64,000 nucleotides of DNA from Hyphomicrobiales bacterium (GTDB lineage Bacteria; Pseudomonadota; Alphaproteobacteria; Rhizobiales; Rhizobiaceae), in the NCBI GenBank assembly GCA_900471605.1, contig UCEY01000001.1:1-64000 (forward strand), read 5' to 3'. Under the pieces are notes generated by a model that ran no database searches, was not told the origin of the DNA, and saw only the letters and a program-made list of their open reading frames with translations. The position numbers and the translations under genes were made by a program. Positions 3,197 to 26,562 of the stretch are shown here, in pieces; position 1 is the stretch's first letter; every line of letters begins with the position of its first letter.

Positions 3197-3245
3197 AGGC
3201 CCGGGCACGAACGATCATGACGAAACGCGGCAAGGAATAATCTCA

Positions 3246-6200: not shown

Positions 6201-6344
6201 GCCACCGGCGCGGGTTCGGCAGCCCAGAACGCCATCGGCATCGGGGTCCTGGGTGGTATGCTTTCTGCAACACTTCTCGGAATTTTCTTCGTTCCGTCCT
6301 TCTTTGTTGTCGTTAGACGGTTATCAAAGCGTGAAAAAGAGTAG
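3246..6344 (+). CDS. RND multidrug efflux pump, HAE-1 family (AcrB/MexB type)
   Basis: Proton-driven inner-membrane trimer exporting hydrophobic or amphipathic drugs through the adaptor and outer-membrane channel. The 1032 residues match the family length. The N-terminus MAKFFIRRPVFAWV is typical; transmembrane helix 4 carries the paired aspartates of the proton relay (D406-D407 in GLLVDDAIVVVEN) and the C-terminal half carries the partner lysine K935 (GLAAKNAILIVEF). Two large periplasmic loops follow TM1 and TM7. The start at 3246 follows AAGGA at 3232-3236; the frame is open upstream but that part overlaps the adaptor gene. Middle gene of a TetR-adaptor-pump-channel operon. Confidence 0.95.
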   Translation: MAKFFIRRPVFAWVIAIVIMLGGALAIATLSISQYPDIAPTTVRITASYNGASAETVEKSVTTIIEDGMTGLDDLTYMTSSSSTGRATVTLTFGSSVLPDIAQVQVQNKLQLVQSQLPDVVQQAGIEVARSTSSILMVGALVSTDKKRSSVDLGDLFSTQIEDQVKRLEGVGSIDIFGSGYAMRVWLDPYKLQKYQLTPADVTSAIQSQNTQVSVGALGGLPARAEQQLTVTMTAQSQLTTVDDFERIILKVEQDGATVRLSDVARVEIGEESYGGGSRQNGLPSTGFAVNLATGANALDTAARVREALTAIGPNLPDGVEITYPYDTTPFVKLSIEKVVHTLIEAIILVFVVLLIFLQNLRATLIPMIAVPVVLLGTFGVLAITGYSINTLTMFAMVLAIGLLVDDAIVVVENVERIMDEEGLSPLEATEKSMGEITGAIIGIALVLTAVFIPMAFFGGSTGIIYRQFSITIVSAMLLSALVAIVLTPALCATMLKPIDHHKKRRGIGAMFNRGFDRSTRGYVGTIGYLLKRPFRVMLAFLLVIGGCAWLFTKLPNSFLPQEDQGVLLTIIQTPVGATTPRTDEAVKKVEAYFLEKEKDNVDAVFGVLGFSFSGSGQNNAIVFTKLKDFADRARPEQSAAAIVQRASGYFFSIRDAQVFALLPPAIQGLGTSSGFSMYLVDSGNNGNAALTAASQQLMQAGTGNPNISSLRSSTQRSETQLKILLDQEKLGAMGVDLASVNSMLATIFAGRDVNDFTLNNELKPVYVQGDAPYRMQPDDLKHWFARNNKGEMVPFSAFSTVQWISGTPQLARFNGTSAIPLDGAAGPGVSTGQAMDEMQRLTSALPGGYSVAWQGISYQERLSGSQAPMLYGLSVLIVFLCLAALYESWSIPFSVILAVPIGVLGALTAAHFFGQANDVYFKVGLLTTIGLAAKNAILIVEFAKDRQVGGMSLIDATLEAARLRLRPIIMTSLAFILGVVPLAIATGAGSAAQNAIGIGVLGGMLSATLLGIFFVPSFFVVVRRLSKREKE

Positions 6345-6476
6345 GATGAACATTACGTTCGTTAACGTATTCGTCTTTTAATGCCGTCAGAAGCTGCTCG
6401 AATCGCTGCTGGCGGGACAATCGGAAGCGGCCTGAATGCCGATCTTTCAAGCGTTGTAGGGCACTGGGACAGAAAA

Positions 6477-7901
6477 ATGTTATCCATTCGAGTTGTTGCT
6501 CCTCTCACCATGCTGCTGCTTTCGGGCTGCGTCGTCGGTCCAGATCACAAGGCGCCGGAAATTGCTCTTCCGGGAAAATTTGCCGAAGCCGGCAAGACCA
6601 GCAATGGCGACGTTTCGCAGGTCGCCTGGTGGACCGCGTTTAACGACAGCCGGCTGAACGGCTATGTCAATCAGGGTATCGGCCAGAACCTCGACATCCT
6701 CCAGGCGATGGAACGGATCAACTCCGCGCAGGCCAGCGTCACCGTCGCCGGCGCGGGCGCTCTTCCGTCGCTCGATATTTCGGCTGCCAATACGACCACC
6801 GGCACGCGCAGCGATCCGGGCTCGTTCTCGCGGTCGACCGTGACGGCCGGCACCGCCGACGCCTCCTGGTTCCTCGATCTTTTCGGCCTCTACAGGCGCT
6901 CCAAGGAAGGCGCGCTCGCAAGCCTCGACGCCGCTTATGCCAGCGAAGACGTCGCGCGTCTGTCGTTCCTGTCGCAGGTCGTGGCAGCCTATATCGACGT
7001 CCGCTACTATCAGGAACGTATCGCGATCGCTCGCCGGAACCTCGATTCGCGGCGTGAAACGCTGAACCTCACCAAGCTCCAGCTGGATGCCGGCGCGGCT
7101 TCGCGTCTCGATGTCGTCCAGTCGGAAGGTCTGGTGAATTCGACGATTGCAGAAATTCCAGGCCTGGAAACGAGCTTCCGGGGTGCAGCGCACCGCGTGG
7201 CCACGCTTCTCGCCATGCCCGCGTCGAGCCTCGTTCCCGAGCTGCTGAAGGGCGCCCGCCAGCCGGTCGCCCGCTTCAACACCAAGGCCGGCATCCCCGC
7301 GGATCTGATCCGCAACCGTCCGGACATCCGGGCCGCGGAACGCCAGCTCGCATCGGCAGTCGCCGAAATCGGCGTTGCCGAGGCCCAGCTCTATCCGGCG
7401 ATTACCCTCGGGGGTTCCATCTCTCCGAGATACTCCGCCGTCACCGGCCTCGACGTCCGGTCGCTGACCTGGTCCTTCGGCCCGCAGCTGAGCCTGCCGA
7501 TCTTCGACGGCGGCCGCCTGCGCGGCAACGTCAAGATTGCCGAATCCAGCGCACGAGGCCGTTATCTCGCCTGGAAGCAGACGGTTCTGAACGCGGTCGA
7601 GGAAGTGGAAAATGCGCTGGCTGCGGTTTCTCGCGACAGCCGCACCGTCTCCTCGCTGCAGGCAACCGTGAAATCCTATGAGGAAGCCCTGCAGCTCGGC
7701 ACCGCCAGCTATCGCGACGGCGCGTCCTCGCTGCTCGACGTTCTCGACGCCCAGCGTCAGGTCTCGACCGCTCAGTCGAACCTCGCTGCCGCCGTCCGTC
7801 AGATGGCGCAGGACTATGTCTCGCTCAACGTGGCGGTCGGCGGTGGTTACGCCTTCGGCAAGACCGATGCCAAGGTCGCATCGGTGGTCGTCAAGAAGTA
7901 A
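6477..7901 (+). CDS. Outer-membrane efflux channel lipoprotein (OprM/NodT family)
   Basis: A 474-residue TolC-fold outer-membrane factor completing the RND pump. It begins with a lipoprotein signal ending in LLSGC, followed by the VGPDHKAPE segment typical of the NodT subfamily, and contains the duplicated outer-membrane efflux repeat with long Ala/Gln-rich coiled helices (for example GLVNSTIAEIPGLE and the YRDGASSLLDVLDAQRQV block). The ATG at 6477 is preferred because it starts right at the signal peptide; an ATG 96 bp upstream in frame would add 32 residues that look non-coding. The 132-bp gap to the pump gene is longer than usual in such operons and contains a short TACGTT/AACGTA hairpin (6354-6369), so separate tuning is possible. 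A strong terminator follows. Confidence 0.92.
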   Translation: MLSIRVVAPLTMLLLSGCVVGPDHKAPEIALPGKFAEAGKTSNGDVSQVAWWTAFNDSRLNGYVNQGIGQNLDILQAMERINSAQASVTVAGAGALPSLDISAANTTTGTRSDPGSFSRSTVTAGTADASWFLDLFGLYRRSKEGALASLDAAYASEDVARLSFLSQVVAAYIDVRYYQERIAIARRNLDSRRETLNLTKLQLDAGAASRLDVVQSEGLVNSTIAEIPGLETSFRGAAHRVATLLAMPASSLVPELLKGARQPVARFNTKAGIPADLIRNRPDIRAAERQLASAVAEIGVAEAQLYPAITLGGSISPRYSAVTGLDVRSLTWSFGPQLSLPIFDGGRLRGNVKIAESSARGRYLAWKQTVLNAVEEVENALAAVSRDSRTVSSLQATVKSYEEALQLGTASYRDGASSLLDVLDAQRQVSTAQSNLAAAVRQMAQDYVSLNVAVGGGYAFGKTDAKVASVVVKK

Positions 7902-8739: not shown

Positions 8740-9810
8740 ATGAGCTCGTCCCGACCTGCCATACCTCGCTCGCCCTGGTGGACGCCGGCAAACCATGCGG
8801 ACCGCCGGCCCTTCCTCAAGGGCCGCAACGCGGTCCAGGCGGCGCTGCGCGATTTCTTCCGCGCGCGCGATTTCATCGAGGTGGACACGGCGACCCTCCA
8901 GGTCTCGCCGGGCAACGAGACGCATCTGCATGCCTTCGCGACGGAGGCGATCGCCATCGACGGCGGCAGGGCGCCGCTCTACCTGCACACCTCTCCGGAA
9001 TTTGCCGCCAAGAAGCTGCTGGCCGCTGGCGAGGAGCGTATCTTCACCTTCGCGCATGTCTATCGCAACCGCGAGCGCGGGTCGCTGCACCATCCGGAAT
9101 TCACCATGCTCGAATGGTATCGCGTCGGCGAAAGCTATGAGCAGCTGATGGCCGATTGCGCCGACATGCTGGCACTGGCCGCCGAGACAGCCGGGACCCG
9201 GCGCTTTGCCTTCCGCGAGATGGAGGTCGATCCTTTCGCCGAACCGGAGCGCCTGACGCTTGCCGAAGCCTTCGACCGGTTCGCCGGTATCGACCTGCTC
9301 GCCTCCGTCGCGACGAATGGCGAAACCGACCGGGACCTGCTGGCGGCCGGCCTGCGGAAGGCCGCTATCCGCTTTGCCGAAGACGACACCTGGGCCGATC
9401 TCTTCAGCAAGGTGCTGGTCGAGAAGATCGAGCCGCATCTCGGGCAGGGGCGCGCAACGATCCTGCACGAATACCCGGTTTGCGAGGCGGCGCTTGCGAG
9501 GCCCTCCGCCCGTGATCCGCGAGTCGCCGAGCGTTTCGAGCTTTATGCCTGCGGCGTCGAGCTTGCCAATGCCTTCGGGGAACTGACCGATGCCGGCGAA
9601 CAGCGCCGCCGTTTCGAGCATGAAATGGCGGAAAAGACCCGGATCTATGGCGAACGTTATCCGCTCGACGAAGACTTTCTCGCAGCGCTTTCGATCATGC
9701 CGGAGGCAAGCGGGGCAGCGCTCGGCTTCGACCGGCTTGCCATGCTGGCAACCGGCGCCAGCCGTATCGACCAGGTGATGTGGGCGCCGGTCGCGGAGGT
9801 GTTTTCGTGA
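8740..9810 (+). CDS. epmA: EF-P lysine ligase EpmA (PoxA/GenX), LysRS-like
   Basis: A 356-residue stand-alone class II lysyl-tRNA-synthetase catalytic core without an anticodon-binding domain. It activates (R)-beta-lysine with ATP and attaches it to Lys34 of EF-P. Class II motifs are visible: motif 2 around [23 protein letters not shown] and motif 3 [12 protein letters not shown] near the C-terminus. The stop codon overlaps the GTG start of epmB by 4 bp (GTGA), so the two are translationally coupled. The EF-P substrate is divergently encoded 165 bp away with the required lysine, which supports the call strongly. No EpmC hydroxylase is seen here. Confidence 0.95.
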
Positions 9811-10853
9811 CCGCAGTGCGCTCATTGAAGACCCCCGAAGAGCTGGCCGCCGCCGGCCTGATCGAGCCCGGGAAGCTCGACGGCATCCGCGCCGTCGCAG
9901 ACCGCTACGCGATCGCGCTGACGCCGACGGTGGTGTCGCTGATCGATAAAGCCGATCCGGCCGATCCCATCGCCCGGCAGTTCGTGCCCGATCCCAACGA
10001 ATTGCTGACGACTCCGGAAGAACGCGCCGACCCGATCGGCGATCAGGCGCACAGTCCGGTCAAGGGCATCGTCCATCGTTATCCGGACCGGGTGCTCTTG
10101 AAGGCCGTGCATATCTGCCCGGTCTATTGCCGCTTCTGCTTTCGCCGCGAAATGGTCGGCCCGCAGGGCGACGGCACGCTTTCGCCCGAGGAGCTGGCGG
10201 CGGCGCTCGCCTATATCCGCGAGCACGGGGAAATCTGGGAGGTGATCCTGACCGGCGGCGATCCGCTGGTTCTCTCCCCGCGCCGGCTGGCCGCGATCAT
10301 GCGCGGGCTTGCCGAAATCCCGCATGTGAAGATTGTCCGCTTTCATACCCGCGTGCCGGTGGTCGAACCGGAGCTTGTCGACGAGGCGATGATTGCCGCG
10401 CTGAAGGAAAGCCGCAAGACCGTTTATGTGGCGCTGCACGCCAATCATCCGCGGGAGATGACCGATGCCGCCCGCGCCGCCTGCGCCCGGCTGATCGATG
10501 CCGGTTTCCCGATGGTGAGCCAGACCGTGCTGCTCGCCGGCGTCAACGACGATCCGGCCGTGCTCGGCGAACTGATGAGAGCCTTCGTCGAAACCCGCGT
10601 GAAACCCTATTATCTGCACCACCCCGACCTTGCCCCCGGCACCGCCCATTTCCGCCTCGACATTGCCGAGGGGCAGAAGATCACTTCCGCGCTGCGCGGC
10701 ACGATTTCCGGCCTCTGCCAGCCGACCTACGTGCTCGATATTCCCGGCGGCCACGGCAAGGCGGTGATCGGCGAAAGCGCGGTGCGGAGCGAAGGCGGCT
10801 GTTATTCGGTGAGCGATTTTCGCGGTGAGGAGCACGAGTATCCGCCGAAGTGA
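9807..10853 (+). CDS. epmB: EF-P (S)-beta-lysine 2,3-aminomutase EpmB (radical SAM)
   Basis: A 348-residue radical SAM enzyme of the lysine 2,3-aminomutase family that converts L-alpha-lysine to beta-lysine for EpmA. The iron-sulfur motif CX3CX2C is C104-C108-C111 (CPVYCRFC), followed by the GGDPL motif typical of this family and a C-terminal segment with the PLP-binding region and the conserved [13 protein letters not shown] block. It is shorter than catabolic KamA enzymes and has the EpmB size. The start is the GTG at 9807, which overlaps the epmA stop; an ATG-like start 27 bp upstream would lie inside epmA and is less likely. A 7-bp hairpin right after the stop (10853-10859 with 10884-10890) may be a weak terminator. 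Confidence 0.93.
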
Positions 10854-11620: not shown

Positions 11621-13660
<2,040 letters not shown>

Positions 13661-13667
13661 TGCCGGC

Positions 13668-13842: not shown

Positions 13843-14094
13843 ATGAACGAGACCATTCGCGAATTGCTGACGCGGGTAGGCGGCCTTCCGGTCGCGGTGA
13901 CGGAGCTGGAAGACGGCGCCGATCTTTATGCGGCGGGCCTTTCCTCCTTCGCATCGGTGCAGCTGATGCTGGGCCTGGAGGAGGCGTTCGACATCGAATT
14001 CCCGGACAACCTTCTGAACCGCAAGTCCTTCGCCAGCATCGCGGCGATCGAGCAGACGGTCTCCCACATCCTGAAAGCCCGCGAGGCCGCTTGA
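13843..14094 (+). CDS. Acyl/aminoacyl carrier protein
   Basis: An 83-residue carrier protein of the PP-binding fold. The phosphopantetheine site is in the AAGLSSFASVQLML segment with the modifiable serine at position 35; the usual preceding aspartate of DSL is a serine here (SSF), as in some specialised carrier proteins. The start ATG at 13843 has GGAG eight bases upstream; an in-frame ATG at 13807 lacks one. It is followed two bases later by an acyl-CoA-dehydrogenase-like gene and then by an amino acid:carrier-protein ligase, whose homologues in Bradyrhizobium and Agrobacterium charge exactly such a neighbouring carrier with glycine or alanine. It is therefore probably an aminoacyl carrier, not the fatty-acid ACP. 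Confidence 0.85.
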   Translation: MNETIRELLTRVGGLPVAVTELEDGADLYAAGLSSFASVQLMLGLEEAFDIEFPDNLLNRKSFASIAAIEQTVSHILKAREAA

Positions 14095-14095
14095 G

Positions 14096-15277
14096 ATGAG
14101 CCTCCCCGCCTTTGCCGCAGACATGGCCTTGAGCGCACGCGCTCATCGCGTGGCAACCGTAGCGGCTGAATTCGCCGATCCCGTCGACCGGGACGGCCGC
14201 TTCCCGCGCGAGGCGGTCGACGCCATGAAAGCCGAGCGCCTTCTCGGCATCCAGATCCCGACCGGGTTCGGCGGCGAGGGCGCTTCCATCACCGAGATCG
14301 CCGAGGTCTGCTCCATCCTGGGACAGGCCTGCGCCTCGAGCGCCATGGTTTTCGCCATGCACCAGATCAAGGTTTCGAGCCTCGTGGTGCACGGCGCCGA
14401 CAGTCCCTGGCACATGGATTTCATGCGCGAACTCGCCGGCCGCCAGCTTCTCGTCGCCTCCGCGACGACCGAGGCCGGCATCGGCGGCAACATGCGCAAC
14501 TCGATCTGCGCGATCGAGGTCGATGGCGACACCTGCCGCCTGACGAAGGATGCGACCGTGATTTCCTACGGCGCCCATGCCGATGCGGTCATGGTCACCT
14601 CGCGGTCGAACGAAGGCGCCGCCCCGACCGACCAGGTCATGACGGTCTTCCGGCACGGCCAGTACACCCTGCAGAAGACGGTCGACTGGGATACGCTCGG
14701 CATGCGCGGCACCTGCTCCGACGGTTTTCTCTTCCAGGGCGAAGCGCCATCGGCGCAGATCTTCCCGAAACCGTTCGCCGAGATCGCGGCCCAGTCGATG
14801 CTTGCCACCTCGCATCTTCTCTGGAGTGCCGTCTGGTACGGTATCGCCGCCGATGCGGTCCTGCGGGCGCAGGCTTTCGTGCGCGCTGCAGCCCGCAAGG
14901 CCGGCGGCACCCAGCCGCCCGGCGCGCTCAGGCTCGCCGAAGCCTCCAACCAGCTGCAGCTCCTCAAGGGCAATATTCTCTCGGGCCTCAAGCACTATGA
15001 GGATGCCAAGCTTGATTCCGACCGCTTGTCGTCCATGGGCTTTTCGATCGCCATGAACAACGTCAAGCTCGCCTCTTCCGAGATGATCCTGACCATCATC
15101 AACCAGGCGATGATCATTTGCGGTATCATGGGCTACAAGAACGGCACGCCCTACAGCCTTGGCCGGCACCTGCGCGATGCTCATTCCGCCCAGCTGATGA
15201 TCTCCAACGACCGCATTCTCGGCAATACGTCGACCATGCTGCTCGTCCAGAAACCGGACACCAGCCTCGTCGGCTGA
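14096..15277 (+). CDS. Acyl-CoA-dehydrogenase-like flavoprotein of the aminoacyl-carrier cluster
   Basis: A 393-residue member of the acyl-CoA dehydrogenase superfamily: helical N-domain, central beta domain with ASATTEAGIGGN and TKDATVISYGAHAD (FAD-contacting region), and helical C-domain with IICGIMGYKNGTPYSLGRHLRDA. The C-terminal EGT motif that carries the catalytic glutamate in classical short- and medium-chain enzymes is not visible; the segment reads ISNDRILGNTS instead, so the chemistry may differ from simple fatty-acyl-CoA dehydrogenation. Given its position between a carrier protein and an aminoacyl-carrier ligase, action on a carrier-bound aminoacyl group is plausible, by analogy with prolyl-carrier oxidases of pyrrole pathways. 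That is inference. Confidence 0.8.
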   Translation: MSLPAFAADMALSARAHRVATVAAEFADPVDRDGRFPREAVDAMKAERLLGIQIPTGFGGEGASITEIAEVCSILGQACASSAMVFAMHQIKVSSLVVHGADSPWHMDFMRELAGRQLLVASATTEAGIGGNMRNSICAIEVDGDTCRLTKDATVISYGAHADAVMVTSRSNEGAAPTDQVMTVFRHGQYTLQKTVDWDTLGMRGTCSDGFLFQGEAPSAQIFPKPFAEIAAQSMLATSHLLWSAVWYGIAADAVLRAQAFVRAAARKAGGTQPPGALRLAEASNQLQLLKGNILSGLKHYEDAKLDSDRLSSMGFSIAMNNVKLASSEMILTIINQAMIICGIMGYKNGTPYSLGRHLRDAHSAQLMISNDRILGNTSTMLLVQKPDTSLVG

Positions 15278-15325
15278 CGCCCCATCACTTCAAATGTAAT
15301 GCATTGAAAATAATGAGGTGAAGCC

Positions 15326-16237
15326 ATGGATTTGCAAGTTTCATTTCTCGACCGCCTGTTCGACGCGGGCCTGCTGATCGAGACCGGCGTGGACGGGCTT
15401 TATGGCCGCAGCGGCCAGTTCGAAGACGTGATCGCCGCCTTCGAACGGCTGATCGACAGGGTCGGCGGCGCCGACGGCGCGGAAGCCATGCGCTTCCCGC
15501 CGGGCATGAACCGCGCCTTCTTCGAGACCAGCGGCTACATGAAGAGCTTTCCGCAGCTTGCCGGCACCATCCACTCGTTCTGCGGCAACGAGCTCGACCA
15601 CATGAACCTGCTGAAATGCATGGAGGTCGGCGAGGAGGACTGGACCAAGGGCCAGGAAGCCACCGACATCGTCCTGACCCCGGCTGCCTGCTATCCGCTC
15701 TATCCGACCGTTGCGCGCCGCGGCAAGCTGCCCGCCGGCGGCAGCCTCTTCGACCTGCAGAGCTACTGCTTCCGCCACGAACCCTCCAAGGATCCGGCCC
15801 GCCAGCAGCTGTTCCGCATGCGCGAATATGTCTGCATGGGCACCGAACGGCATGTCACCGATTTCCGCCAGAGCTGGATGGACCGCGGCGTCGAGATGAT
15901 GAAGTCGGTCGGCCTCGAGGTGACGATCGACATAGCCAACGACCCCTTCTTCGGCCGCGCCGGCAAGATGCTGGTCAACAACCAGCGCGACCAGAACCTG
16001 AAGTTCGAGCTGCTGATCCCGATCACGTCGGTCGCAAAGCCGACCGCCTGCATGAGCTTCAACTACCATCAGGATTCGTTCGGCCTGAAATGGGGCCTGA
16101 ACCTGGAAGACGGCAGCGTCGCCCACACCGCCTGCGTCGGTTTCGGCCTGGAACGCATCGCGCTTGCGCTGTTCCACACCCATGGTCTGGATATTAAGGA
16201 GTGGCCGGAAAACGTCCGCGCCACGCTCTGGGGCTGA
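15326..16237 (+). CDS. Amino acid:[carrier protein] ligase (truncated SerRS homologue)
   Basis: A 303-residue stand-alone class II synthetase core resembling archaeal-type seryl-tRNA synthetase without a tRNA-binding arm. Homologues Bll0957 (Bradyrhizobium) and Atu2573 (Agrobacterium) activate glycine or alanine and load it onto the phosphopantetheine of a carrier protein. Visible features: class II motif 2 (FRHEPS to FRMREYV, residues 149-168), motif 3 ([12 protein letters not shown], 272-283) and the zinc ligand set expected for this family, C122, E167 and C270. The carrier-protein gene lies 1.2 kb upstream on the same strand. The start has AGGTGAAG just upstream. It ends four bases before the DUF1839 gene. 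Confidence 0.92.
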
Positions 16238-16241
16238 TCCG

Positions 16242-17225
16242 ATGACGACGGTTTTTCCCGGTCTCGATCCGGCGAACTACGCGACACATGCGCTCCATTC
16301 CGCCGAGCGCATGTGGCCGGAAACCAATTGTTACCTCGATCTGTGGATCGAGGTGCTGTCGGCACAGGGCCTGCCGCCCGAGGCCATGCTCGGCTTCACC
16401 CTGACCCAGGATTTCGAGGGCGACCAGTTCACCTTCTTCAAGGTGCCGCTGGAGGATCTCGAAACCCTGTTCGGCATCCGCGTCACCGAACTGGCGATCT
16501 TCGACCGGCCGGAATGGCACGTCATGGAACAGGTCCGCCGCGGCCGGCTGACGCTGCTCGAGCTCGACAGCTTTTACCTGCCCGATACCCGCGGCGTTGC
16601 CTATCGCCAGGAACATGGCAAGACGACGGTGGCCGTCAACCGCCTCGACCTCGAAAAGCGGGAGCTCGATTATTTCCACAATGGCGGCTTCTTCTCGCTG
16701 TCGGCCGGGGATTTCGACGGACTGTTCCAGCTCGACGCGGCCCCGGACGCGCTGCCCTTCCTGCCCTATACCGAATTCGCAAAATTCCCCGCAGCCTATC
16801 CGGACGCCGGCGAAATTCGCGAAACGGCTTGGAAACTTCTCAGGCATCATTTTGCCCGGCGGCCGCAGGACAATCCCCTCCGTGCCTTCGCAAAGGTCTT
16901 CCCGGCGCAGGTGGAACGCATAGCCGACCGGGATTTCGGCTTCTTCCACAAATATGCCTTCAACACGCTCCGGCAGGTCGGCGCCAATTTCGAGCTTCTG
17001 GCGAGCCATCTGGCCTGGCTGAACCGCAAGACCTTCGCGCAAGCGGAGCAACAGGCGCTGAAGATTTCGGAGGTTGCGAAATCCACCCAGTTCCAGCTGG
17101 CCCGCGCCGTCACCCGCAAGAAATTCGAACCGCTGGCAACGGCACTCGATCCGGCCGCCGATGCCTGGGATCTGCTGATGGGTGATCTCGCGCTGACGCT
17201 GACCCAAGCCCGCGAGGCCGCGTGA
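16242..17225 (+). CDS. DUF1839 family protein, possible Cys/His acyltransferase
   Basis: A 327-residue soluble protein of the DUF1839 family, function unknown. The N-terminal half has a strongly patterned core: ETNCYLDLWIEVL with cysteine 30, then ELDSFYLPDT (D109, D115), then YRQEHGKTTVAVN with histidine 125, and a YFHNGG segment at 144-149. A cysteine in a helix start followed by a distant histidine recalls papain-fold transferases such as BtrH, which moves an aminoacyl group from a carrier protein to an aminoglycoside. No signal peptide or membrane helix. It starts four bases after the aminoacyl-carrier ligase and overlaps the GH2 gene by 4 bp, so it is in the same operon. The transferase idea is inference from motif layout and context only. 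Confidence 0.8.
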   Translation: MTTVFPGLDPANYATHALHSAERMWPETNCYLDLWIEVLSAQGLPPEAMLGFTLTQDFEGDQFTFFKVPLEDLETLFGIRVTELAIFDRPEWHVMEQVRRGRLTLLELDSFYLPDTRGVAYRQEHGKTTVAVNRLDLEKRELDYFHNGGFFSLSAGDFDGLFQLDAAPDALPFLPYTEFAKFPAAYPDAGEIRETAWKLLRHHFARRPQDNPLRAFAKVFPAQVERIADRDFGFFHKYAFNTLRQVGANFELLASHLAWLNRKTFAQAEQQALKISEVAKSTQFQLARAVTRKKFEPLATALDPAADAWDLLMGDLALTLTQAREAA

Positions 17226-19705
17226 GCCTTCTTTCCGTCATGGGATCAAAGACCAGCCTTCTCGCCGAAGGCTGGTCTTTGACGATGACCGAGCCGGGTG
17301 CCTGCGCGCGGCCGGGCGACCTTCCCTCCGGATCGGACACCATCCCGGCCATCGTCCCCGGCACGGTCGCCGCCGCCCTGGAAGCTGCCGGCCGCTTCGA
17401 CCGCGACAATCCCGAACCGCTGATCGATAGGGATGCCTGGTATCGCCGCCCACTTGCGGGCGAAACGCCGGGACCGGCAGTCTTGAGGTTCGCCGGGCTT
17501 GCGACCGTGGCCGAAGTATTTCTCGACGAGACGCTGATCCTGTCGTCGGCAAGCATGTTCGAAAGCCACGACGTGCCGGTCGAGCTGACCGGTACGCAAA
17601 CCCTGTCGATCTGCTTTCGAGCGCTGAAACCGCATCTGGAAAAGACCGGCCCCCGCGCCCGCTGGCGGCCGCGGCTGATGAACAGCCAGGGCCTGCGCCT
17701 GATCCGCACCACCGCGCTCGGTTTCATGCCGGGATGGAGCCCTCAGGTTCATGCGGTGGGCCCCTGGCGGCCGGTTTCGGTGATCAGGGCGGCCGATAAT
17801 CGCCTGGCCTCGCCTCTCCCATCCGGCCCCGCGGCCGACCTTCTTTCCACCGGGGAGAAAGGGAAACTCGCCATATCCGCCGAGCTTGATGAAAGCGGGG
17901 CAGGCATTCTGAAAGTAGGCTTTGCGTTTGACGGGCCGCACCGCGATCTCCGGCTCCTCTGCAACGGCACCGAGGCGCATTTCACGAATGACGGCGAGCG
18001 ATATTCGGCCGTGCTTCGCCTGCCGGATATAAAACCCTGGTGGCCGCATACCCATGGCGAACCGGCACTCTATGACGTCGTACTCCGAGCCGATGGCGAG
18101 GAATTCCCGCTGGTGCGCACCGGCTTCCGAAGCCCGAGCGTCGATCGCGGCCCGGACGGCAACGATTTCGCCGTCATCGTCAATGGTGAGAAGATATTCT
18201 GCCGCGGCGCCGTCTGGACGTCCGCCGACATCGTCAAGCTGCCCGGCGACCGCGCGAGCTACGAACCCTGGCTTCGGCTGGCAAGAGACGCGGGCATGAA
18301 CATGATCCGCATTCCGGGCATCGCGACCTATGAAAGCCCGCAGTTTTTCGCGCTGTGCGACGAACTGGGCCTCCTGGTCTGGCAGGATCTGATGTTCGCC
18401 AATTTCGACTATCCCGTCGCCGACCCGGATTTCTTGATTCACGTGAAATCGGAGGTGGAGCAGTTCCTTGCGGCGACTGGAGCCTCGCCGTCGCTTGCCG
18501 TCCTTTGCGGCGGCAGCGAGATCTATCAACAGGGCGCCATGCTGGGCATGCCAGAACGGATCTGGAAAGGTCCCCTCTGCGAAGACGTGCTTCCTGCCTT
18601 GGCCGCGGAATACCGGCCGGACCTGCCCTATGTCGCGAATTCCCCCAGCGGCGGCGCGCTGCCTTTTTACCCGAATGCCGGCGTGGCGCATTATTACGGC
18701 GTCGGCGCCTACAAGCAGCCGCTGGAGGACGCCCGGCGGGCGGATGTCCGTTTCGCGGCCGAGTGCCTGGCCTTCTCCAACCTTTCGGACGCGGAAACGC
18801 TGGCCGGCGGCAAGGCCGGGATCCCACGGGACGCCGGAGCCGACTGGGATTTCGAGGATGTGCGGGACCACTATCTCGGCAGGCTTTACGACCTTGATCC
18901 GCAGACGCTGCGCGCGGAGCAGCCGGAACGCTATCTTGACTTCTCGCGCGCCGTGACCGGCGAAGTGATGGAATCGGCTTTTGCCGAATGGCGGCGGCCG
19001 GGCTCCACCTGCAACGGCGCGCTCGCCTTCACCTTCCAGGATGTCATGCCGGGGCCCGGCTGGGGCGTGGTCGATGTCGGCGGAACGCCGAAACCCGCCT
19101 GGTTCGCGCTGAAACGGGCCTTCCGCCCGGTCCAGGCCGTGTTTGCCGACGAGGGGACCAACGGGCTGGATGTCCATCTTGTCAACGAGACGCCGGCCGA
19201 CCTGCCGGTGGTTCTGGAAGTAACCTGCCTGCGGGACGGCCGAATGCCCGTCGTATCGGGTCGCCACGACCTCACGCTTGCGGCCCGGAGCAGCAGAAGC
19301 GTCGCCTCGACCGACCTGTTCGGCGCCTTCTTCGACACGAACTACACCTACCGTTTCGGCCCGCCCTCTCATGACGTGACGGTGGCGCGGTTGAGAGATG
19401 CGCAAACCGGGGAAATTCTGGCGCAGGCGCATCATTTCCCGCTCGGGCGCGCGCAGGCCCTGCATGATGCCGAAATCACCGTTTCGGTCGCCGAGGATGG
19501 GGGAGAGTTCTGGCTGGAGCTTTCGAGCGACGTCTTCGCCCAGTCGGTCCGTATCGAATGCGCCGGTTACCGCGCCTGCGACAATGGCTTCCATCTGGCG
19601 CCGGGCGCAATCAGACGGATCCGCCTTGACCCGCTCCCCGACGCCGCCGGCAGACCGGCCGGCACGATCCGGTCACTCGGCGGCGGCCGAATCGCGCGTT
19701 TTTGA
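17222..19705 (+). CDS. Glycoside hydrolase family 2, beta-mannosidase-like
   Basis: An 827-residue GH2-type enzyme with the expected order: N-terminal sugar-binding jelly roll (about 20-190), immunoglobulin-like domain, TIM barrel (about 320-640) and C-terminal beta domains. The likely acid/base is E433 in the GGSEIYQQ segment and the likely nucleophile is E514 in RFAAECLAF; the ARWRPRLMNSQG and LVWQDLMFANFDY segments are typical of mannosidase-like members. No signal peptide, so cytosolic. The GTG start overlaps the DUF1839 stop (GTGA). The 3' end overlaps the convergent hydrolase gene by 33 bp. Its membership in an aminoacyl-carrier operon is unusual and suggests that the product carries or comes from a sugar. 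Confidence 0.82.
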   Translation: MSLLSVMGSKTSLLAEGWSLTMTEPGACARPGDLPSGSDTIPAIVPGTVAAALEAAGRFDRDNPEPLIDRDAWYRRPLAGETPGPAVLRFAGLATVAEVFLDETLILSSASMFESHDVPVELTGTQTLSICFRALKPHLEKTGPRARWRPRLMNSQGLRLIRTTALGFMPGWSPQVHAVGPWRPVSVIRAADNRLASPLPSGPAADLLSTGEKGKLAISAELDESGAGILKVGFAFDGPHRDLRLLCNGTEAHFTNDGERYSAVLRLPDIKPWWPHTHGEPALYDVVLRADGEEFPLVRTGFRSPSVDRGPDGNDFAVIVNGEKIFCRGAVWTSADIVKLPGDRASYEPWLRLARDAGMNMIRIPGIATYESPQFFALCDELGLLVWQDLMFANFDYPVADPDFLIHVKSEVEQFLAATGASPSLAVLCGGSEIYQQGAMLGMPERIWKGPLCEDVLPALAAEYRPDLPYVANSPSGGALPFYPNAGVAHYYGVGAYKQPLEDARRADVRFAAECLAFSNLSDAETLAGGKAGIPRDAGADWDFEDVRDHYLGRLYDLDPQTLRAEQPERYLDFSRAVTGEVMESAFAEWRRPGSTCNGALAFTFQDVMPGPGWGVVDVGGTPKPAWFALKRAFRPVQAVFADEGTNGLDVHLVNETPADLPVVLEVTCLRDGRMPVVSGRHDLTLAARSSRSVASTDLFGAFFDTNYTYRFGPPSHDVTVARLRDAQTGEILAQAHHFPLGRAQALHDAEITVSVAEDGGEFWLELSSDVFAQSVRIECAGYRACDNGFHLAPGAIRRIRLDPLPDAAGRPAGTIRSLGGGRIARF

Positions 19706-21520
19706 ATAGGCGTCCTCTTCCAGAGGGAAGCGGAAAGCCATCTTTCTCAATGTCTCCAGATAGACCTTGCGCGCATGCTCCGGCGTCAGGTTGTGATCGG
19801 CATTCGGAATGATCTGCGGCGTCACGTTCGGAAAACGGACCAGCCCCGACCCGTCGTGGCCGAAATAGAAATCGTACTGTTCGAGACCGAGATCGTTCTC
19901 GCTGTAAATCAGCGAAACGGGAATGCCGCGATGGTGGAGGGTCCGAAAAGCACCGTAGATCGCCCGCCCTTCCGGCAGGAAACTGCGGAAGGCGTGCAGG
20001 ACCTTGCCCTTGGCCTGGTTGCCGATGCCCTTGGCGATATTGCGGGCCGCGGTGACGACCTTGACCTCGCCCCTGATGATGCGCCTGAAGGTTTCGGCCC
20101 GCAGAGCCCGCTTTCGGTAGTCGCGAAGGCTGCGCGCGCCATTGACGATCATATCCTCGACGGAGCGACCGGGACGCCAGCGGAAGACCGCCGGATTGAC
20201 GGAAACATTGCCGGCTATCCGCGGCTCCACCAGCGATGCCCGGAAGCCCAGAAAGGCGCCGCTGCAACGACCGGCGGTGACCACCGGCATCAGCCGCCGG
20301 GTTTCGAGAAAATCGATCGCTTCCGATACGTCGGCATTCTGATCCGAATGATAGAGAACCTGGTCCGGCCGGCCGGGCACCGGCGGGCTGTCGCCGACAT
20401 TGGCGGTATCGAAACGCAGCGAGGGAATGCCGGACCGCGCCAGCGCGCGAGCGAGAGCCACTGTGGCGCGGCCCCAGCCGGCATGCCGGTCATAGGCGGA
20501 TGTCAGGAAAAGCACCGTCGCGCCCGAGCGGCCGTGCAGCGGCTCGCAGAGCACCCCCGAGAGCCGGCCGTTGGTACCGAAGCGTGTCGGCGTTTCGGCA
20601 AAGCCGTCCCCGGTAAGCGGCGCGGGCGGCACCGGCAGGCGTGATGTCGGGGAAGCAGGTTCCGACGGCAGCGCGGCGATCCAGTCCGTCAGGTTATCGG
20701 CGACCGTCAGCGGCAGTTTCACGATCACCGGATTGGAGACGAGCTTGTCATAACCTTCGAACGCCTGTTCATCCACGTCCGCGCCAAGCGCCCGGAGCCG
20801 CGCGACAAATTCCATATCGGCCGGATGGTCTGCACGGCCGATGACCAGGACCCGCCCGGCAGGCGGTCGGTCGACGCCCAGCAGGTTGACGTTGCGGACC
20901 TCCTCGGCGATCTCGCCGGGCATGGCAAGCGACGCGATGGAGACGCCGGTCTTGTTGTACTGCCCGTCCGTGAGGCCGAGATTCTCATCGACCACCTTGG
21001 ACCAGACCGCGAGCTCGCGGAGATGCAGACGCCCGGAAACGACCGGCGCCATATAAACGATGGCGTCGAGCGCTTCGATCGCCTCGGCGGCCCTGGTGGC
21101 AACGATCGCCCCGAGCCCCTGTGAGACGACGACGATGCGCTCGCAGCCCGAAAGCGCCTTGAGGTGGGCGGAGGCGGAGGCGAGACTGTCGGACCAGACG
21201 GAAAGACCGGCCTGGAAATCGACCTCGTCCAGTGCATCGCCCGTGCCGGGATAATCGAATCGCAGGCTGGCAATACCGCGATCGGCCAGATTTTCCGAAA
21301 TGATGCGCCAGAACTTGCGTGTGCACATTTCCTCCAGCCCCCACGGGCTGGCGAAGAGGACAGCAAGGTTGGACGCTTGGGTTCCGGCCGAGGGTGGCGT
21401 GAAAAGTCCGACCGTTCCGTCGAAGGTCAACGGTTCGGCAGCCGCGCGGGGCAGCAGCGGCGATATCTCCCCGGCGGTCGGGGACTTATTTCGGGCGTCC
21501 ATCATGGCGAATGCCGGCAA
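19673..21520 (-). CDS. Tandem two-domain alpha/beta hydrolase
   Basis: A 615-residue protein made of two alpha/beta-hydrolase domains joined by a Pro-rich linker near residues 285-305. Domain 1 has the strand-turn-helix LRFDYPGTGDA typical of exosortase-associated hydrolases and a degenerate nucleophile elbow VVSQG with S133. Domain 2 repeats the pattern (LRFDTANVGDS) but its elbow is GRCSG, with cysteine 419 in the nucleophile position as in dienelactone hydrolases, and it has a late D-H pair (NADHNLT). No signal peptide. It is the second gene of a minus-strand pair with the GH5 gene, 66 bp apart, converging on the GH2 operon. Substrate unknown; ester or thioester hydrolysis related to the neighbouring cluster or to polysaccharide is a guess. 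Confidence 0.75.
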   Translation of the reverse strand: MPAFAMMDARNKSPTAGEISPLLPRAAAEPLTFDGTVGLFTPPSAGTQASNLAVLFASPWGLEEMCTRKFWRIISENLADRGIASLRFDYPGTGDALDEVDFQAGLSVWSDSLASASAHLKALSGCERIVVVSQGLGAIVATRAAEAIEALDAIVYMAPVVSGRLHLRELAVWSKVVDENLGLTDGQYNKTGVSIASLAMPGEIAEEVRNVNLLGVDRPPAGRVLVIGRADHPADMEFVARLRALGADVDEQAFEGYDKLVSNPVIVKLPLTVADNLTDWIAALPSEPASPTSRLPVPPAPLTGDGFAETPTRFGTNGRLSGVLCEPLHGRSGATVLFLTSAYDRHAGWGRATVALARALARSGIPSLRFDTANVGDSPPVPGRPDQVLYHSDQNADVSEAIDFLETRRLMPVVTAGRCSGAFLGFRASLVEPRIAGNVSVNPAVFRWRPGRSVEDMIVNGARSLRDYRKRALRAETFRRIIRGEVKVVTAARNIAKGIGNQAKGKVLHAFRSFLPEGRAIYGAFRTLHHRGIPVSLIYSENDLGLEQYDFYFGHDGSGLVRFPNVTPQIIPNADHNLTPEHARKVYLETLRKMAFRFPLEEDAYSKTRDSAAAE

Positions 21521-21586: not shown

Positions 21587-22636
21587 TTACCGGTCGCAGG
21601 CCGATTGTTCCGAAAAGATGCGGGAGAGGACCTGCATCTGCGGCCGGTCGCCGCCTTTGGTCGGCTGGATGTTGAGCGGCTCGTCTTCCGGCCACCAGTC
21701 GCCGCCGGCCCAATAGGACCAGCCGAGCCAGACGTCGGGGCCCTGCTCCACCGTCCTGACCATCTCCGCAAGTGCCGGCAGGCATTCCGGAGCGGCAGGC
21801 GTTGCGAATTCGCCGAGATATCCGCGCTGGCCATGTTCCCGAAGCCAGCCGCCGACATCGCTTATCGCCTTGACCGCCTCGGCCGCCCGCGAGCATTCGG
21901 CATTCTTGCCGGAAAAATCCGCATCCAGATATTGGTGGACTTCGTAGGCGTAGTTGTCCTTCGGATCGGAAATGTCGAGCATCACCGATGCATTCGGCGT
22001 GCCGTAATCGCCCGCGAGCCAGCTATGGGCACCGGTCCAGGCCGTTCCCGGCACCAGCACGAGATTGCCGGATCCCGTCTGGCGGATCGCGCCGATCGCG
22101 CTATTGGCGGCTGAAAGCCAGTCCTCGGCCGCAATGTCGTAGGGTTCGTTCATCAAACCGAAGGCGATCCCGTCGATGCCGGCGACGGCTGCGGCAAGCC
22201 GCCGCCAGAAATCGGCAAAGGCGCTTTGCGGCACCATTTCGGAGCCGATCGGCTGGCCTCGGAACCGGCCGTAATTGTGCGGATCGAGAATGACGGCCAT
22301 GCCGCTCGCCCGGATCAGCCGGACGGTGCCGCGCAGCCGTTCGAGCTCGGCGGCATCGAGCTCCTTGTAGAGAAGCGGCTGCAGCCTTTCCCAAAGGAAC
22401 GGCAGGCGCACCGTGTTGAAACCCCGGGCGGCGAAATAGTCGATCGTTTCCTTGGAGGGATAGACATAACCCTTGCCGTAGGCATCGCCGAGATCGCCGA
22501 ACTCGGCGCCCGCAAGGTTTATGCCGCGCAGGCAGGCGGTCTTTGCTTCGGCCGAACCGTTCACCACCGCCAAGGACACCAGGGCGCCCAGCAGGCGCGA
22601 GACGTGGCGACCGAATTTTGGGGACCTCTTCTGCAA
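21587..22636 (-). CDS. Secreted glycoside hydrolase family 5 (endoglucanase-like)
   Basis: A TIM-barrel GH5 enzyme of about 349 residues. The acid/base is E164 in GLMNEPYD and the nucleophile E276 in YLGEFATP; the usual RLPFLWERL, DPHNYGR and VHQYLD blocks are present. The start is the notable point: a TTG at 22636 is preceded by GGAGGA five bases upstream and begins LQKRSPKFGRHVSRLLGALV, a clean signal peptide ending in SAEA. An ATG at 22672 would add acidic residues in front of it and has a weaker site. The enzyme should be exported and act on beta-glucan-type polysaccharide, its own exopolysaccharide or plant material. Forms a minus-strand pair with the two-domain hydrolase. Confidence 0.85.
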   Translation of the reverse strand: MQKRSPKFGRHVSRLLGALVSLAVVNGSAEAKTACLRGINLAGAEFGDLGDAYGKGYVYPSKETIDYFAARGFNTVRLPFLWERLQPLLYKELDAAELERLRGTVRLIRASGMAVILDPHNYGRFRGQPIGSEMVPQSAFADFWRRLAAAVAGIDGIAFGLMNEPYDIAAEDWLSAANSAIGAIRQTGSGNLVLVPGTAWTGAHSWLAGDYGTPNASVMLDISDPKDNYAYEVHQYLDADFSGKNAECSRAAEAVKAISDVGGWLREHGQRGYLGEFATPAAPECLPALAEMVRTVEQGPDVWLGWSYWAGGDWWPEDEPLNIQPTKGGDRPQMQVLSRIFSEQSACDR

Positions 22637-22946
22637 GTCTTCCTCCAATGCGAAGCCGCAACCTGCCACCATAACCTTTAGCAAATGCGAATCGTTGCCG
22701 AAGCAGCCTCCGCGGCGGTGATGCGCGCGCCGACGGCGCAAAGGGAACGGAATTTTGTACGGCCGGCTTTAAGGTCGGGCCATGGAAGCCAACACAAACG
22801 GATCTTGAGATACGCTGTACACATTTCCGGAGTGAGACCGGGCGTCGTTGGGCTATTTTCCTTTTCCGGAAGGGCTGGATATTGTCCAATGCCCTTTTTA
22901 TGTATACACGAAATGGCCAACCGATGGCGGAGGAGGGAGAATTGAG

Positions 22947-23916: not shown

Positions 23917-26562
23917 ATGTCCGACGTCCTGCCAGAACTCATAGAGCCTCCTTCGAACGACCTCTCGATCGACGCGATCGAAGACCTTCTGCGCGACCAC
24001 TACGGGCTATCAGGCCAGGTTTTCCCGATCGAGGGGCGGCAGAACCCCTATTTCCTGATCGACAACGGTCATATGCGTTATCTGCTCAAGGTGGCGCCCG
24101 CCGATGGCCCCGTCGAGGAGATCGAGGCCGAACACGCCCTGATGCGCCATATCCTGCGCAGTCCGGACGGGCCGCGGGTTCCCGAACCCGTGATGGCCAA
24201 GGACGGCGGCGACATGCTCGTCCTGCCGCTCGGCGGCGAAGACCGGCGCATCCGCCTCCTCACCTTTCTCGAAGGCGAACCGCCGCCGACGGGTGAAAAA
24301 CTTTCCGACCGATCCATTGCCGCCTTTGGGGCGATCTCGGCGGCGCTTGCAAAAAGCCTCCAGGATTTCGACCATCCGGTCCTGCAGCGCGAGCCGGAGG
24401 GCGACCTGCGCAAGGCAGGCCCCCAGACGGTCTCTCTGTTGTCAGCGGTCACCGACCAGGACATCCGCGATGTGATCGCCAAGGCGATGGTGACGGCACT
24501 TCGGCGCATCCAGCCGCTGGGCCCGAGCCTGAGGGTCGCGGCCGCGCACCAGAACCTGAATGCCGGAACCGTCATCGGCGAAGAAACGGACGGCACATGG
24601 CTGCCGACCGGCGTGACGGATTTTACCGGCATTTCCAACGGCTGGCTGGTCGCCGGCTTCGCCAATACCTGCGCCTACCTTCTCGCCGACCGCGACGGAG
24701 ATCCGTTCGCGCTGTTGCCGGCGATCCGTGCCTATCATGAGATCCATCCGCTCACTCCAGGCGAAATCGAAGCGCTGTGGCCGCTGGTCGTCGCCCGCAC
24801 CGGCATTCTCGCGGCGGAAGCCGAGAGCCGGCAGGCCCGCTCGCCCGATGATCCTCAGGCCAGGCAGGAAACCGAGAAACGCCGTGCCGTGCTGAACGGT
24901 GCAACCTCGGTTTCACCGGCGCAGGTGTTGGCAGCCATTCTCGATGCAACGGGAACGGCGAAGCCGTTGCCGGAGATCGGCCGGCTGCTGCCCGATATCG
25001 ACCCCGAGACCTTCCGGATGGTGGACCTGAGCGTCACCAGCCCGCTCCTCTATGGCGGCAACTGGACGGATGCCGACAACGACTGGAAGCTGCTTGCCCA
25101 TATCGCCTGGGAGACCGGCCGCGCCTGCACCCGCTACGGCGAATACCGCCTGTCGAAAAGCCTCACCGATCCGCAACAGGCGCCGGAGAGTTTCGCGCTT
25201 CATATCGATGCCTGCATACCCGCCCGGACGGTGGCGGTGGCCCCCTTCGCGGGCACGCTGAAAAGCGCCGGCCCCCGCCTCGTCCTCGCTGGCCGCGACC
25301 TGACCCTGCATGTCGAAGGTCTCGAATGCACGCTTGCCGAAGAGACTGAACTCGCGGCCGGCGATCCGCTTGGCGTGATCGCCGGGGCCGACAATTCCGT
25401 CGGCGGCCTGCGGCTCAGGTTCTGCCTCGATCCGGATCTCGTGCCGCCGCTCTTCTGCAAGCCTTCGGAGGTCGGCACCTGGTCGAGACTATGCCCCTCG
25501 CCCTCCGCACTGCTCGGCATCGACGCGAATGCTCCGGCGCCCAGACACTCCGACCAGGCGGTTCGCGGCTGGAAGGAATATCTCTTCGATCCAACGGGCC
25601 GCACGGCGCTCGACCTCGGCGGCCAGGCGCCGCTGATCGGCCACGGGCATCCGCGTCCCGCTGCCGCGACTTACCGCCAGGCCTTGCTGCTCAACCGCAC
25701 GACTGGCCAGCCGTCGGAGCCTGAAGAGGTTTTGCGCGCGCAACTGGCCGAGCTTGCGCCTGAAGGGTTGAGCCATGTCGCTTTTGCCGCCGGACGCGAT
25801 CAAGCCCTCGATCTCGCCTTCCGGCTTGCCCGCGCCTACACGAACAAGGGCCGGATCATCGGCCTGCCGGGGATCAGGCTGGATCGCCGGGACCCGGACT
25901 TCTTCCCCGTTCCGTCGATCGGGACCGCTGCCGACATGATCCACGACCTCGAGGATGTCGCGGCCGCGCTGGCGGAAGGTTATGGCGAGGCCGCCCATCC
26001 GAGCGATCCCTTGACGGAACTGAAGGAGAAGGCGGGCCTGCTGATTGTCGACGAAACCGGCACCGGCTACGGCCGTGTCGGCCATCACACCTGGGGTTTC
26101 TCGCACCGGGGCCTTGCACCTGACATCCTGGTCGCGGACGGGCCGGACGGAGGCACGCCTGCACTTGTAATGACGCGGCCGGAAATCGCGGCCAGTCTTT
26201 CCCCGCACGAACACCGCCCGGCCATCTGTCCGGTCAAGGCCGCAGCGGCCTTGGCGGCACTGGATGTCGTGAGGGACGAACAATTGCGGGAAAACACCCG
26301 CGAGATCGGCAGCCACCTGAAGACACGGCTCGAAGGCCTCGCCGAGCGGTTTCCCGCGATCGTTGACGTAACCGGCAGCGGCCTGCTGCTCGCGGTCGAG
26401 CTCGCCGAGGAGGCGGCCGATCTCGGCGAACGGCTGCGGCCCGGCTTTATCGTGGACGACAGCACCCCGAAGCGCATCGTTCTGCGTCCGCCCCTGTGCC
26501 TCAGCCGCGAAAGTGCGGACAGGCTCGCGGATCGGATCGAGACCCTGCTCTCGGAAAGTTGA
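23917..26562 (+). CDS. APH-M23-class III aminotransferase fusion with degenerate active sites
   Basis: An intact 881-residue frame with the domain order of the known trifunctional family (aminoglycoside-phosphotransferase-like kinase, M23 peptidase-like, class III aminotransferase), but key residues are missing in each. APH domain (about 20-300): the catalytic HxDxxxxN block reads HQNLNAGT at 211-218, so Asp and Asn are Asn and Thr; the DF of the DFG site survives (235-236). M23-like domain (about 425-500): the first zinc histidine of HxGxD is not visible. Aminotransferase (about 550-881): the DE of DEVQ survives (DETGTGYGR, 712-720), but the PLP-lysine segment GKPxGNG is DGPDGGT (741-747), aligning a glycine with the lysine, and the region around the usual YHG motif is shortened. 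Codon use looks normal. I infer a retained non-catalytic or repurposed protein. RBS GGAGAGG precedes the ATG. Confidence 0.75.
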   Translation: MSDVLPELIEPPSNDLSIDAIEDLLRDHYGLSGQVFPIEGRQNPYFLIDNGHMRYLLKVAPADGPVEEIEAEHALMRHILRSPDGPRVPEPVMAKDGGDMLVLPLGGEDRRIRLLTFLEGEPPPTGEKLSDRSIAAFGAISAALAKSLQDFDHPVLQREPEGDLRKAGPQTVSLLSAVTDQDIRDVIAKAMVTALRRIQPLGPSLRVAAAHQNLNAGTVIGEETDGTWLPTGVTDFTGISNGWLVAGFANTCAYLLADRDGDPFALLPAIRAYHEIHPLTPGEIEALWPLVVARTGILAAEAESRQARSPDDPQARQETEKRRAVLNGATSVSPAQVLAAILDATGTAKPLPEIGRLLPDIDPETFRMVDLSVTSPLLYGGNWTDADNDWKLLAHIAWETGRACTRYGEYRLSKSLTDPQQAPESFALHIDACIPARTVAVAPFAGTLKSAGPRLVLAGRDLTLHVEGLECTLAEETELAAGDPLGVIAGADNSVGGLRLRFCLDPDLVPPLFCKPSEVGTWSRLCPSPSALLGIDANAPAPRHSDQAVRGWKEYLFDPTGRTALDLGGQAPLIGHGHPRPAAATYRQALLLNRTTGQPSEPEEVLRAQLAELAPEGLSHVAFAAGRDQALDLAFRLARAYTNKGRIIGLPGIRLDRRDPDFFPVPSIGTAADMIHDLEDVAAALAEGYGEAAHPSDPLTELKEKAGLLIVDETGTGYGRVGHHTWGFSHRGLAPDILVADGPDGGTPALVMTRPEIAASLSPHEHRPAICPVKAAAALAALDVVRDEQLRENTREIGSHLKTRLEGLAERFPAIVDVTGSGLLLAVELAEEAADLGERLRPGFIVDDSTPKRIVLRPPLCLSRESADRLADRIETLLSES

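Follow-up and report, generated by a model that had tools for sequence, protein, structure and literature searches.

The first 64,000 nucleotides of contig UCEY01000001.1 from a Hyphomicrobiales bacterium of the Rhizobiaceae (hereafter the window) carry adjoining genes for an aminoacyl carrier protein, a flavoprotein, a paralogue of seryl-tRNA synthetase (SerRS), a protein of family DUF1839 and a glycoside hydrolase of family 2 (GH2). We propose that these genes form a self-contained cassette in which an amino acid is loaded onto the carrier, oxidised there and transferred to an acceptor, most likely an amino sugar, a reading that we hold to be slightly more probable than its negation. The window operon is the Neorhizobium-like counterpart of Atu2571-Atu2575 of Agrobacterium, and the nearest named DUF1839 loci are those of Neorhizobium. 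An earlier note made from the letters of the window alone (the original prediction) had called the pathway undescribed; that description does not hold, since a note in proof of 2010, in the excerpted text of PMC2922099, had already predicted from gene neighbourhoods that Atu2571-Atu2575-type partners ligate an amino acid to a cell-surface amino sugar, with Atu2574 as the amide-forming enzyme and a guess at monooxygenation. The gene kinds of that prediction (carrier, redox enzyme, SerRS paralogue, Atu2574 family and glycosidase) are present together in the window, and the scheme of activation, oxidation and amide formation on a surface amino sugar is the same; what is added here is the fold and catalytic residues, the linkage counts, the division into two subtypes and a sixth gene. 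The scheme of the original prediction, in which the flavoprotein acts on the carrier-bound aminoacyl group, DUF1839 transfers it and GH2 handles a sugar, is largely supported, with oxygenation likelier than dehydrogenation.

All five genes lie at the place and on the strand first claimed for them. Read off the sequence, the gaps in this plus-strand run are 1, 48, 4 and -4 bp, so that the last three distances of the original prediction stand and the first, given as 2 bp, does not (Table 1).

Table 1. Features of the cassette and its flank (positions in the window; last row, positions in the named fetched loci).
Feature	Position	Strand	Basis or remark
Aminoacyl carrier protein, 83 aa, phosphopantetheine site Ser35	13843..14094	+	PF00550 and NF005480 above cut-off; close to Atu2571 (PDB 2jq4)
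Flavoprotein, acyl-CoA dehydrogenase fold; Ile369 and Ser239 at the two positions of the dehydrogenase catalytic Glu, His240 invariant; proposed to oxygenate the carrier-bound aminoacyl group	14096..15277	+	Both acyl-CoA-dehydrogenase Pfam domains passed
Amino acid--[carrier protein] ligase, SerRS paralogue, Cys122/Glu152/Cys270	15326..16237	+	NF005479; Bll0957 structures 3mey/4h2w
DUF1839, papain-like; Cys30, His125, Thr128/Thr129, His146; proposed aminoacyl-carrier:amine amide synthase, CcbD-like	16242..17225	+	PF08893, 426 bits
GH2 glycosidase, beta-mannosidase-like, GTG start; Glu433 and Glu514 present, Ser432 replacing Asn	17222..19705	+	Family and residue alignment
Double alpha/beta hydrolase; domain 2 Cys elbow GRCSG (Cys419), domain 1 apparently without nucleophile; likely sixth member	19673..21520	-	Halves resemble exosortase-A-associated hydrolases 2 and 1
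GH5 glycosidase, cassette membership doubtful	21587..22741	-	Within 6 kb of ligase in 8/120 loci
Two-DUF1839 genomes: operonic copy without Cys30, Thr128 and Thr129; second copy has them	L179 8901-9881 and 13732-14709; L182 9435-10421; L183 88-1095		

Linkage of the five genes is far beyond chance, and the counts rule out a fortuitous cluster. Among 297 sampled genomes of the order, DUF1839 was found in 49, spread over 21 of 122 genera, and in all 49 it shares contig and strand with the ligase, the profile matches lying no more than 455 bp apart. A cassette-type GH2 (above 590 bits) adjoins DUF1839 in 48 of the 49, at a distance of up to 818 bp in 47 and of 2632 bp in one; the sole exception (genome G296) has its DUF1839 at a contig edge. 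No cassette-type GH2 was seen in the 248 genomes without DUF1839, where the best GH2 reached 232 bits; this survey scored at most three candidates per genome, so that absences are not absolute. The ligase, above its curated cut-off, occurs in 64 of the 297 genomes, and all 15 of these ligases that are found without DUF1839 have the cassette flavoprotein 35-115 bp away; six below-cut-off matches were counted as another family, and the cassette flavoprotein was not found in their genomes. A second sample, of 398 genomes from across the phylum and partly the same as that of the order, has DUF1839 in 16, all of them among the 44 with a ligase match. The flavoprotein is present in 119 of 120 ligase loci that were fetched (mostly picked by DUF1839 and largely Rhizobiaceae), a detected carrier in 111, and DUF1839 and GH2 both within 6 kb in 107; across 39 mapped loci, only the five cassette genes and the double hydrolase are common to more than half. 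The same gene order is annotated in all six named plasmid records opened, of 59 records with a DUF1839 match, and such records are the basis for the occurrence of the cassette in Burkholderiaceae. Searches of the genome from which the window comes gave a single DUF1839 and a single ligase.

Both carrier and ligase have close relatives of solved structure: Atu2571, deposited as an aminoacyl carrier protein, and Bll0957, deposited as an amino acid--[acyl-carrier-protein] ligase. As first claimed, the carrier has its attachment site at Ser35, conserved in 110/110 aligned rows, and the SerRS-like ligase, which scores 512.4 bits against NF005479 (curated cut-off 357), keeps Cys122, Glu152 and Cys270 in 120/120 rows; we take these three residues to be the zinc ligands, as in Bll0957. 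The rows of this and the following alignments are not independent (78 of the 105 GH2 rows come from one locus set, nearly all Rhizobiaceae by title), and those outside 0.8-1.35 of the length of the window protein were dropped, namely one carrier, three flavoprotein and three GH2 rows and no ligase or DUF1839 row. Bll0957 of Bradyrhizobium is of the same family as the window ligase and has solved structures; the window carrier scores 25 bits with the Bll0957 carrier (4h2s_C) and 114 with Atu2571. The biochemistry of ligase and carrier is reported to come from Mocibob et al. 2010 and 2013.

In a tree of 54 of the 120 ligase rows, from which a divergent sequence (L197) was excluded, 42 ligases accompanied by DUF1839 and GH2 and 12 without them form the two sides of one branch, with support of 100/100. 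The former, to which the window belongs, we call subtype A; subtype B (loci L185-L196) comprises the 12 of the 15 ligases without DUF1839 that were fetched and read. Flavoprotein and ligase are present in 12/12 subtype-B loci and a carrier was detected in 8/12; a short-chain dehydrogenase and an AMP-binding enzyme are added in 7/12 and a polysaccharide flippase in 3/12. What accompanies the ligase constantly is thus the flavoprotein and not the transferase; this may mean that oxidation comes directly after loading. The excluded L197 (genome G257) encodes a ligase relative of 403 aa and 28% identity, without the cassette flavoprotein, and represents another SerRS-like family.

The role of transferase, which the original prediction gave to DUF1839, is supported by its fold. 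When a model with a mean predicted local distance difference test score (pLDDT) of 90.5 was compared with the PDB by fold, the 19 matches at E<=0.001 were three AziU2-U3, eight CtaG and eight CcbD chains, and no others; weak matches to protease folds appeared only above E 0.05. CtaG and AziU2-U3, the best fold matches, belong to the closthioamide and azinomycin pathways, respectively. CcbD, according to the excerpted text of PMC12945683, converts carrier-bound proline to an amide with an amino sugar, and a CcbD-type fold would point to the transferase of the cassette and its likely acceptor class. Like the condensing enzymes CcbD and LmbD, DUF1839 has a papain-like fold with a Cys nucleophile, Cys30 being conserved in 107 of 109 rows and His125 and His146 in all 109. 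Within the excerpted literature on the cassette we found no such comparison, and it appears to be new. Two points weigh against it: the likeness is one of fold only (template modelling score over the query 0.47-0.64, 12-14% identity), searches of PDB sequences by profile retrieving none of CcbD, CtaG and AziU2-U3 for DUF1839 at E<=1 or at E<=10, and the site is probably not the Cys-His-Glu triad of CcbD. PMC10318531, in its portions on DUF1839, counts it with the papain-like families whose site is Cys-Thr/Ser-His and suggests cell-wall glycan processing.

The two DUF1839 copies without Cys30 are operonic (genomes G588 and G521), and each genome has a second DUF1839 gene that bears the Cys. Thr128 and Thr129 are altered only in these two copies. 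This pattern suggests that one Cys-bearing DUF1839 is needed per genome and links Thr128/Thr129 to the site; a catalytic plus helper pair is possible in such genomes. Either His125 or His146 could be the catalytic His, and the published model fits Thr128/Thr129 with His146.

In GH2 enzymes, the Asn that precedes the acid/base Glu usually contacts the 2-hydroxyl of the sugar. The cassette GH2, which among solved proteins is nearest to the beta-mannosidase 2vjx (E 1e-38), has Glu433 (acid/base) and Glu514 (nucleophile) in 105/105 rows, and the residue before the former, Asn in the solved beta-mannosidase, is Ser in 104/105, a departure from the beta-mannosidase pattern. We therefore guess that the substrate sugar is modified at C2, for instance as a 2-amino or 2-aminoacylamino sugar. 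No signal peptide was seen in the GH2 by eye.

The sugar partner of the original prediction gains support from the linkage of GH2 and from the presence of polysaccharide genes beside the cassette in several genomes. Outside the order, the cassette of four genomes sits among polysaccharide genes, together with varying subsets of a WcaJ-type sugar transferase, ManC, Wzc, a Crp-like regulator and the double hydrolase. In the order itself, glycosyltransferases, a Wzx-like flippase, acyltransferase-3 or Wzc-like proteins accompany the cassette at some loci; a Shinella plasmid carries genes for O-antigen ligase, GumC and cellulase ~6-9 kb upstream; and downstream of the cassette in A. pusense come genes for an ATP-binding cassette (ABC) exporter, a UDP-sugar dehydrogenase and a glycosyltransferase. 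These downstream genes fit Atu2577-Atu2592 by order and family, and those of A. tumefaciens B6 do so by gene order; Atu2577 and Atu2582-Atu2592 make up an uncharacterised glycan cluster reported, in excerpts of PMC9790009, to be needed for phenazine tolerance. The Agrobacterium cluster was rejected as a constant partner: its glycosyltransferase has no close match in the window genome (best E 1e-14), and genome G069, which lacks DUF1839, has a match of 391 bits. No polysaccharide or liposaccharide gene was among the 22 open reading frames scanned in part of the window, and the annotation of Caballeronia, R. leguminosarum and A. lipoferum plasmids, whose gene tables are incomplete, shows no cluster for polysaccharide synthesis in the stretches read around the cassette. 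These plasmids and the lack of a close glycosyltransferase match count against the pathway proposed here, and the link to glycan genes is frequent, not constant, since it is present in some genomes and absent beside the cassette on some plasmids. The cassette was also considered as part of the Bep cluster of B. cenocepacia and rejected: PMC3584217 shows a TIGR03100 hydrolase and ManC, and its main text does not contain the words 'carrier protein'. Foldseek against viral models gave no match at E<=0.001.

It is quite possible, although we think it the less probable outcome, that the end product is not a modified surface polysaccharide but a soluble small molecule, an aminoacyl amino-sugar conjugate serving, for example, as a metal binder or signal. 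Lincosamides are such conjugates, none of the five cassette families is a membrane protein family, and the Caballeronia and R. leguminosarum plasmids keep the cassette apart from polysaccharide clusters. However, the gene clusters common to more than half of the 39 mapped loci include no exporter, and Wzc, WcaJ-type, ManC, Wzx-like or O-antigen-ligase genes stand beside the cassette in several genomes.

The flavoprotein model has the acyl-CoA dehydrogenase fold (pLDDT 89.4), and the structure alone did not separate oxygenase from dehydrogenase: Foldseek matched oxygenases (TdsC, DszC, KijD3, DnmZ) and true dehydrogenases with like scores, and the fold is compatible with group D flavin monooxygenases, which work with O2 and reduced flavin supplied by a separate reductase, without being diagnostic of them. 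Its solved sequence relatives, among them DnmZ, glutaryl-CoA dehydrogenase and KijD3, have similar E-values, the nitrososynthase DnmZ being best by a narrow margin. Columns 369 and 239 we take to hold the known catalytic bases of acyl-CoA dehydrogenases, of the short-chain acyl-CoA dehydrogenase (SCAD) type and the isovaleryl type; neither holds Glu in any of 117 cassette rows, where position 369 is Ile in 117/117 and position 239 is Ser in 91, Ala in 21, Cys in 4 and Thr in 1. Relatives in the window's own genome, 20 of the 24 other matches being used, have Glu in the 369 column in nine (and Asp in one more) and in the 239 column in another six, 15/20 in all at either position. His240, invariant in the 117 cassette rows, is replaced by Arg in 16 of these 20 relatives. 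Since neither known catalytic Glu is present, a standard alpha,beta-dehydrogenation is less likely, and oxygenation with flavin and O2 is the reading that we prefer, as PMC2922099 had guessed. Of the original prediction, the action of the flavoprotein on the carrier-bound aminoacyl group gains from its tie to the ligase even where DUF1839 and GH2 are missing, whereas the 'dehydro-aminoacyl' product is less well supported.

That the flavoprotein is after all a dehydrogenase producing an imine or dehydro-aminoacyl thioester, as first proposed, we regard as unlikely. Besides the fold, this alternative has in its favour that FadE16, a family of acyl-CoA dehydrogenases, is the best NCBIfam match (110 bits where 600 is the cut-off; the second, SfnB, is likewise far below its own), that the L-prolyl-[peptidyl-carrier] dehydrogenase model matches weakly (27.5 bits, cut-off 650), prolyl-carrier dehydrogenases being a precedent, and that 5/20 of the own-genome relatives likewise lack both Glu residues. 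Against it stand the absence of both bases throughout the cassette rows and, by its narrow margin, the match to DnmZ.

The double alpha/beta hydrolase is a likely addition to the five genes. A relative of this protein is found in 60/121 loci, 49 copies lying directly after GH2 and 47 of these 49 on the opposite strand, as in the window, where it overlaps the 3' end of GH2 by 33 bp. Records of Azospirillum lipoferum, A. brasilense and Mycetohabitans show the double hydrolase as the next gene on the same strand, with a 4-bp overlap and 25-32% identity to the window protein. The second domain has Cys in the nucleophile elbow (GxCxG) in 58/59 rows; the first, which by alignment has Gly at the elbow position in 56/59, is apparently dead. 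Each half of the window protein matches one of the exosortase-A-associated hydrolases TIGR03100 and TIGR03101, but the halves are fused and score below the curated cut-offs. We consider this Cys-nucleophile hydrolase a likely sixth member of the cassette, and a role in editing or transfer is suggested because a second thiol acyl-enzyme would fit beside a carrier system.

In the proposed pathway, the SerRS-like ligase would adenylate a small amino acid and load it onto the phosphopantetheine of the carrier, as is known for its relatives, which load Gly or Ala onto the neighbouring carrier. The flavoprotein would then oxidise the carrier-bound aminoacyl group, with oxygenation at N or C-alpha likelier than alpha,beta-dehydrogenation. 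Much as CcbD/LmbD do, DUF1839 may take the aminoacyl group on Cys30 and pass it to an amine to give an amide; the acceptor would most likely be an amino sugar, free, nucleotide-bound or in a surface-glycan precursor. GH2, apparently cytosolic, may cut or move the sugar part, and the double hydrolase probably edits or finishes acyl transfer. To the points already raised against this scheme it must be added that no carrier was detected near the ligase in 9/120 loci, nor in 4/12 of subtype B, and that we know of no substrate, product or phenotype of the cassette.

It is improbable that DUF1839 is a thioesterase or peptidase in a catabolic cassette that cuts an imported glycoconjugate with GH2. 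Its papain-like fold and the two glycosidases and hydrolase nearby would suit such a function; however, a dedicated ATP-using ligase and a carrier are biosynthetic parts, the gene clusters common to more than half of the mapped loci include no importer, and the significant fold matches of DUF1839 are three biosynthetic enzymes, not proteases. Supply of a non-ribosomal peptide by the aminoacyl carrier is less probable still: the title of Mocibob et al. 2010 PNAS ties such ligases to non-ribosomal peptide synthesis, but the other six phosphopantetheine-site matches of the genome lie on other contigs (non-ribosomal peptide synthetase (NRPS) genes in relatives were not searched) and the excerpted text of PMC2922099 argues against it.

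A close known parallel is lincosamide synthetase, which, in the excerpts of PMC4351081 and PMC12945683, combines stand-alone activation (LmbC/CcbC), a carrier and a Cys-protease-like condensing enzyme (LmbD/CcbD), the last with the fold of DUF1839. The cassette differs in activating through a SerRS paralogue, not an NRPS A-domain, and has a flavoprotein and GH2 in addition, and the DUF1839 triad is probably another. As far as the excerpted literature on DUF1839 and the Atu257x genes goes, we found no experiment on cassette function, and the locus is of a known, predicted and, to that extent, experimentally unexplored kind. A bolder proposal, which we put forward as tentative and somewhat doubtful, is that DUF1839 founds a non-antibiotic branch of carrier-dependent, Cys-based amide synthases, and that the cassette is a portable pathway to an N-oxidised aminoacyl amino-sugar whose sugar lacks a free 2-hydroxyl. 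Such a sugar, if this were true, would fit the change from Asn to Ser in GH2, and the N-oxidised conjugate would be the physiological fate of aminoacyl-carrier proteins in plant-associated Proteobacteria. The cassette occurs in Agrobacterium, Rhizobium, Azospirillum and Caballeronia, and its product could therefore matter for plant or insect association.

Upstream of the cassette and divergent from it lies thiC with its thiamine pyrophosphate (TPP) riboswitch (13532-13664, minus strand), ~180 bp from the cassette start and directed away; a promoter scan found no promoter, with 1.1 expected by chance. Membership of the cassette in a unit with its thiamine, elongation factor P (EF-P) or purU neighbours was rejected, since thiC and its riboswitch point away and these neighbours vary between genomes. 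The window also encodes an EpmA-type EF-P lysine aminoacylase (8740-9810, plus strand; above the TIGR00462 cut-off), which places two tRNA-synthetase paralogues, this protein and the cassette ligase, less than 6 kb apart. Adjoining it is a lysine-2,3-aminomutase-like protein (9780-10853, plus strand) that passes the uncharacterised model TIGR03822 and fails the EpmB model. A resistance-nodulation-division (RND) efflux permease and a NodT-type outer membrane channel, separated by 37 bp, occupy 3159-7901 (plus strand). At 23917-26562 (plus strand), a kinase-aminotransferase fusion, possibly a divergent form, reaches 598 bits with NF004800 (cut-off 973) over two stretches.

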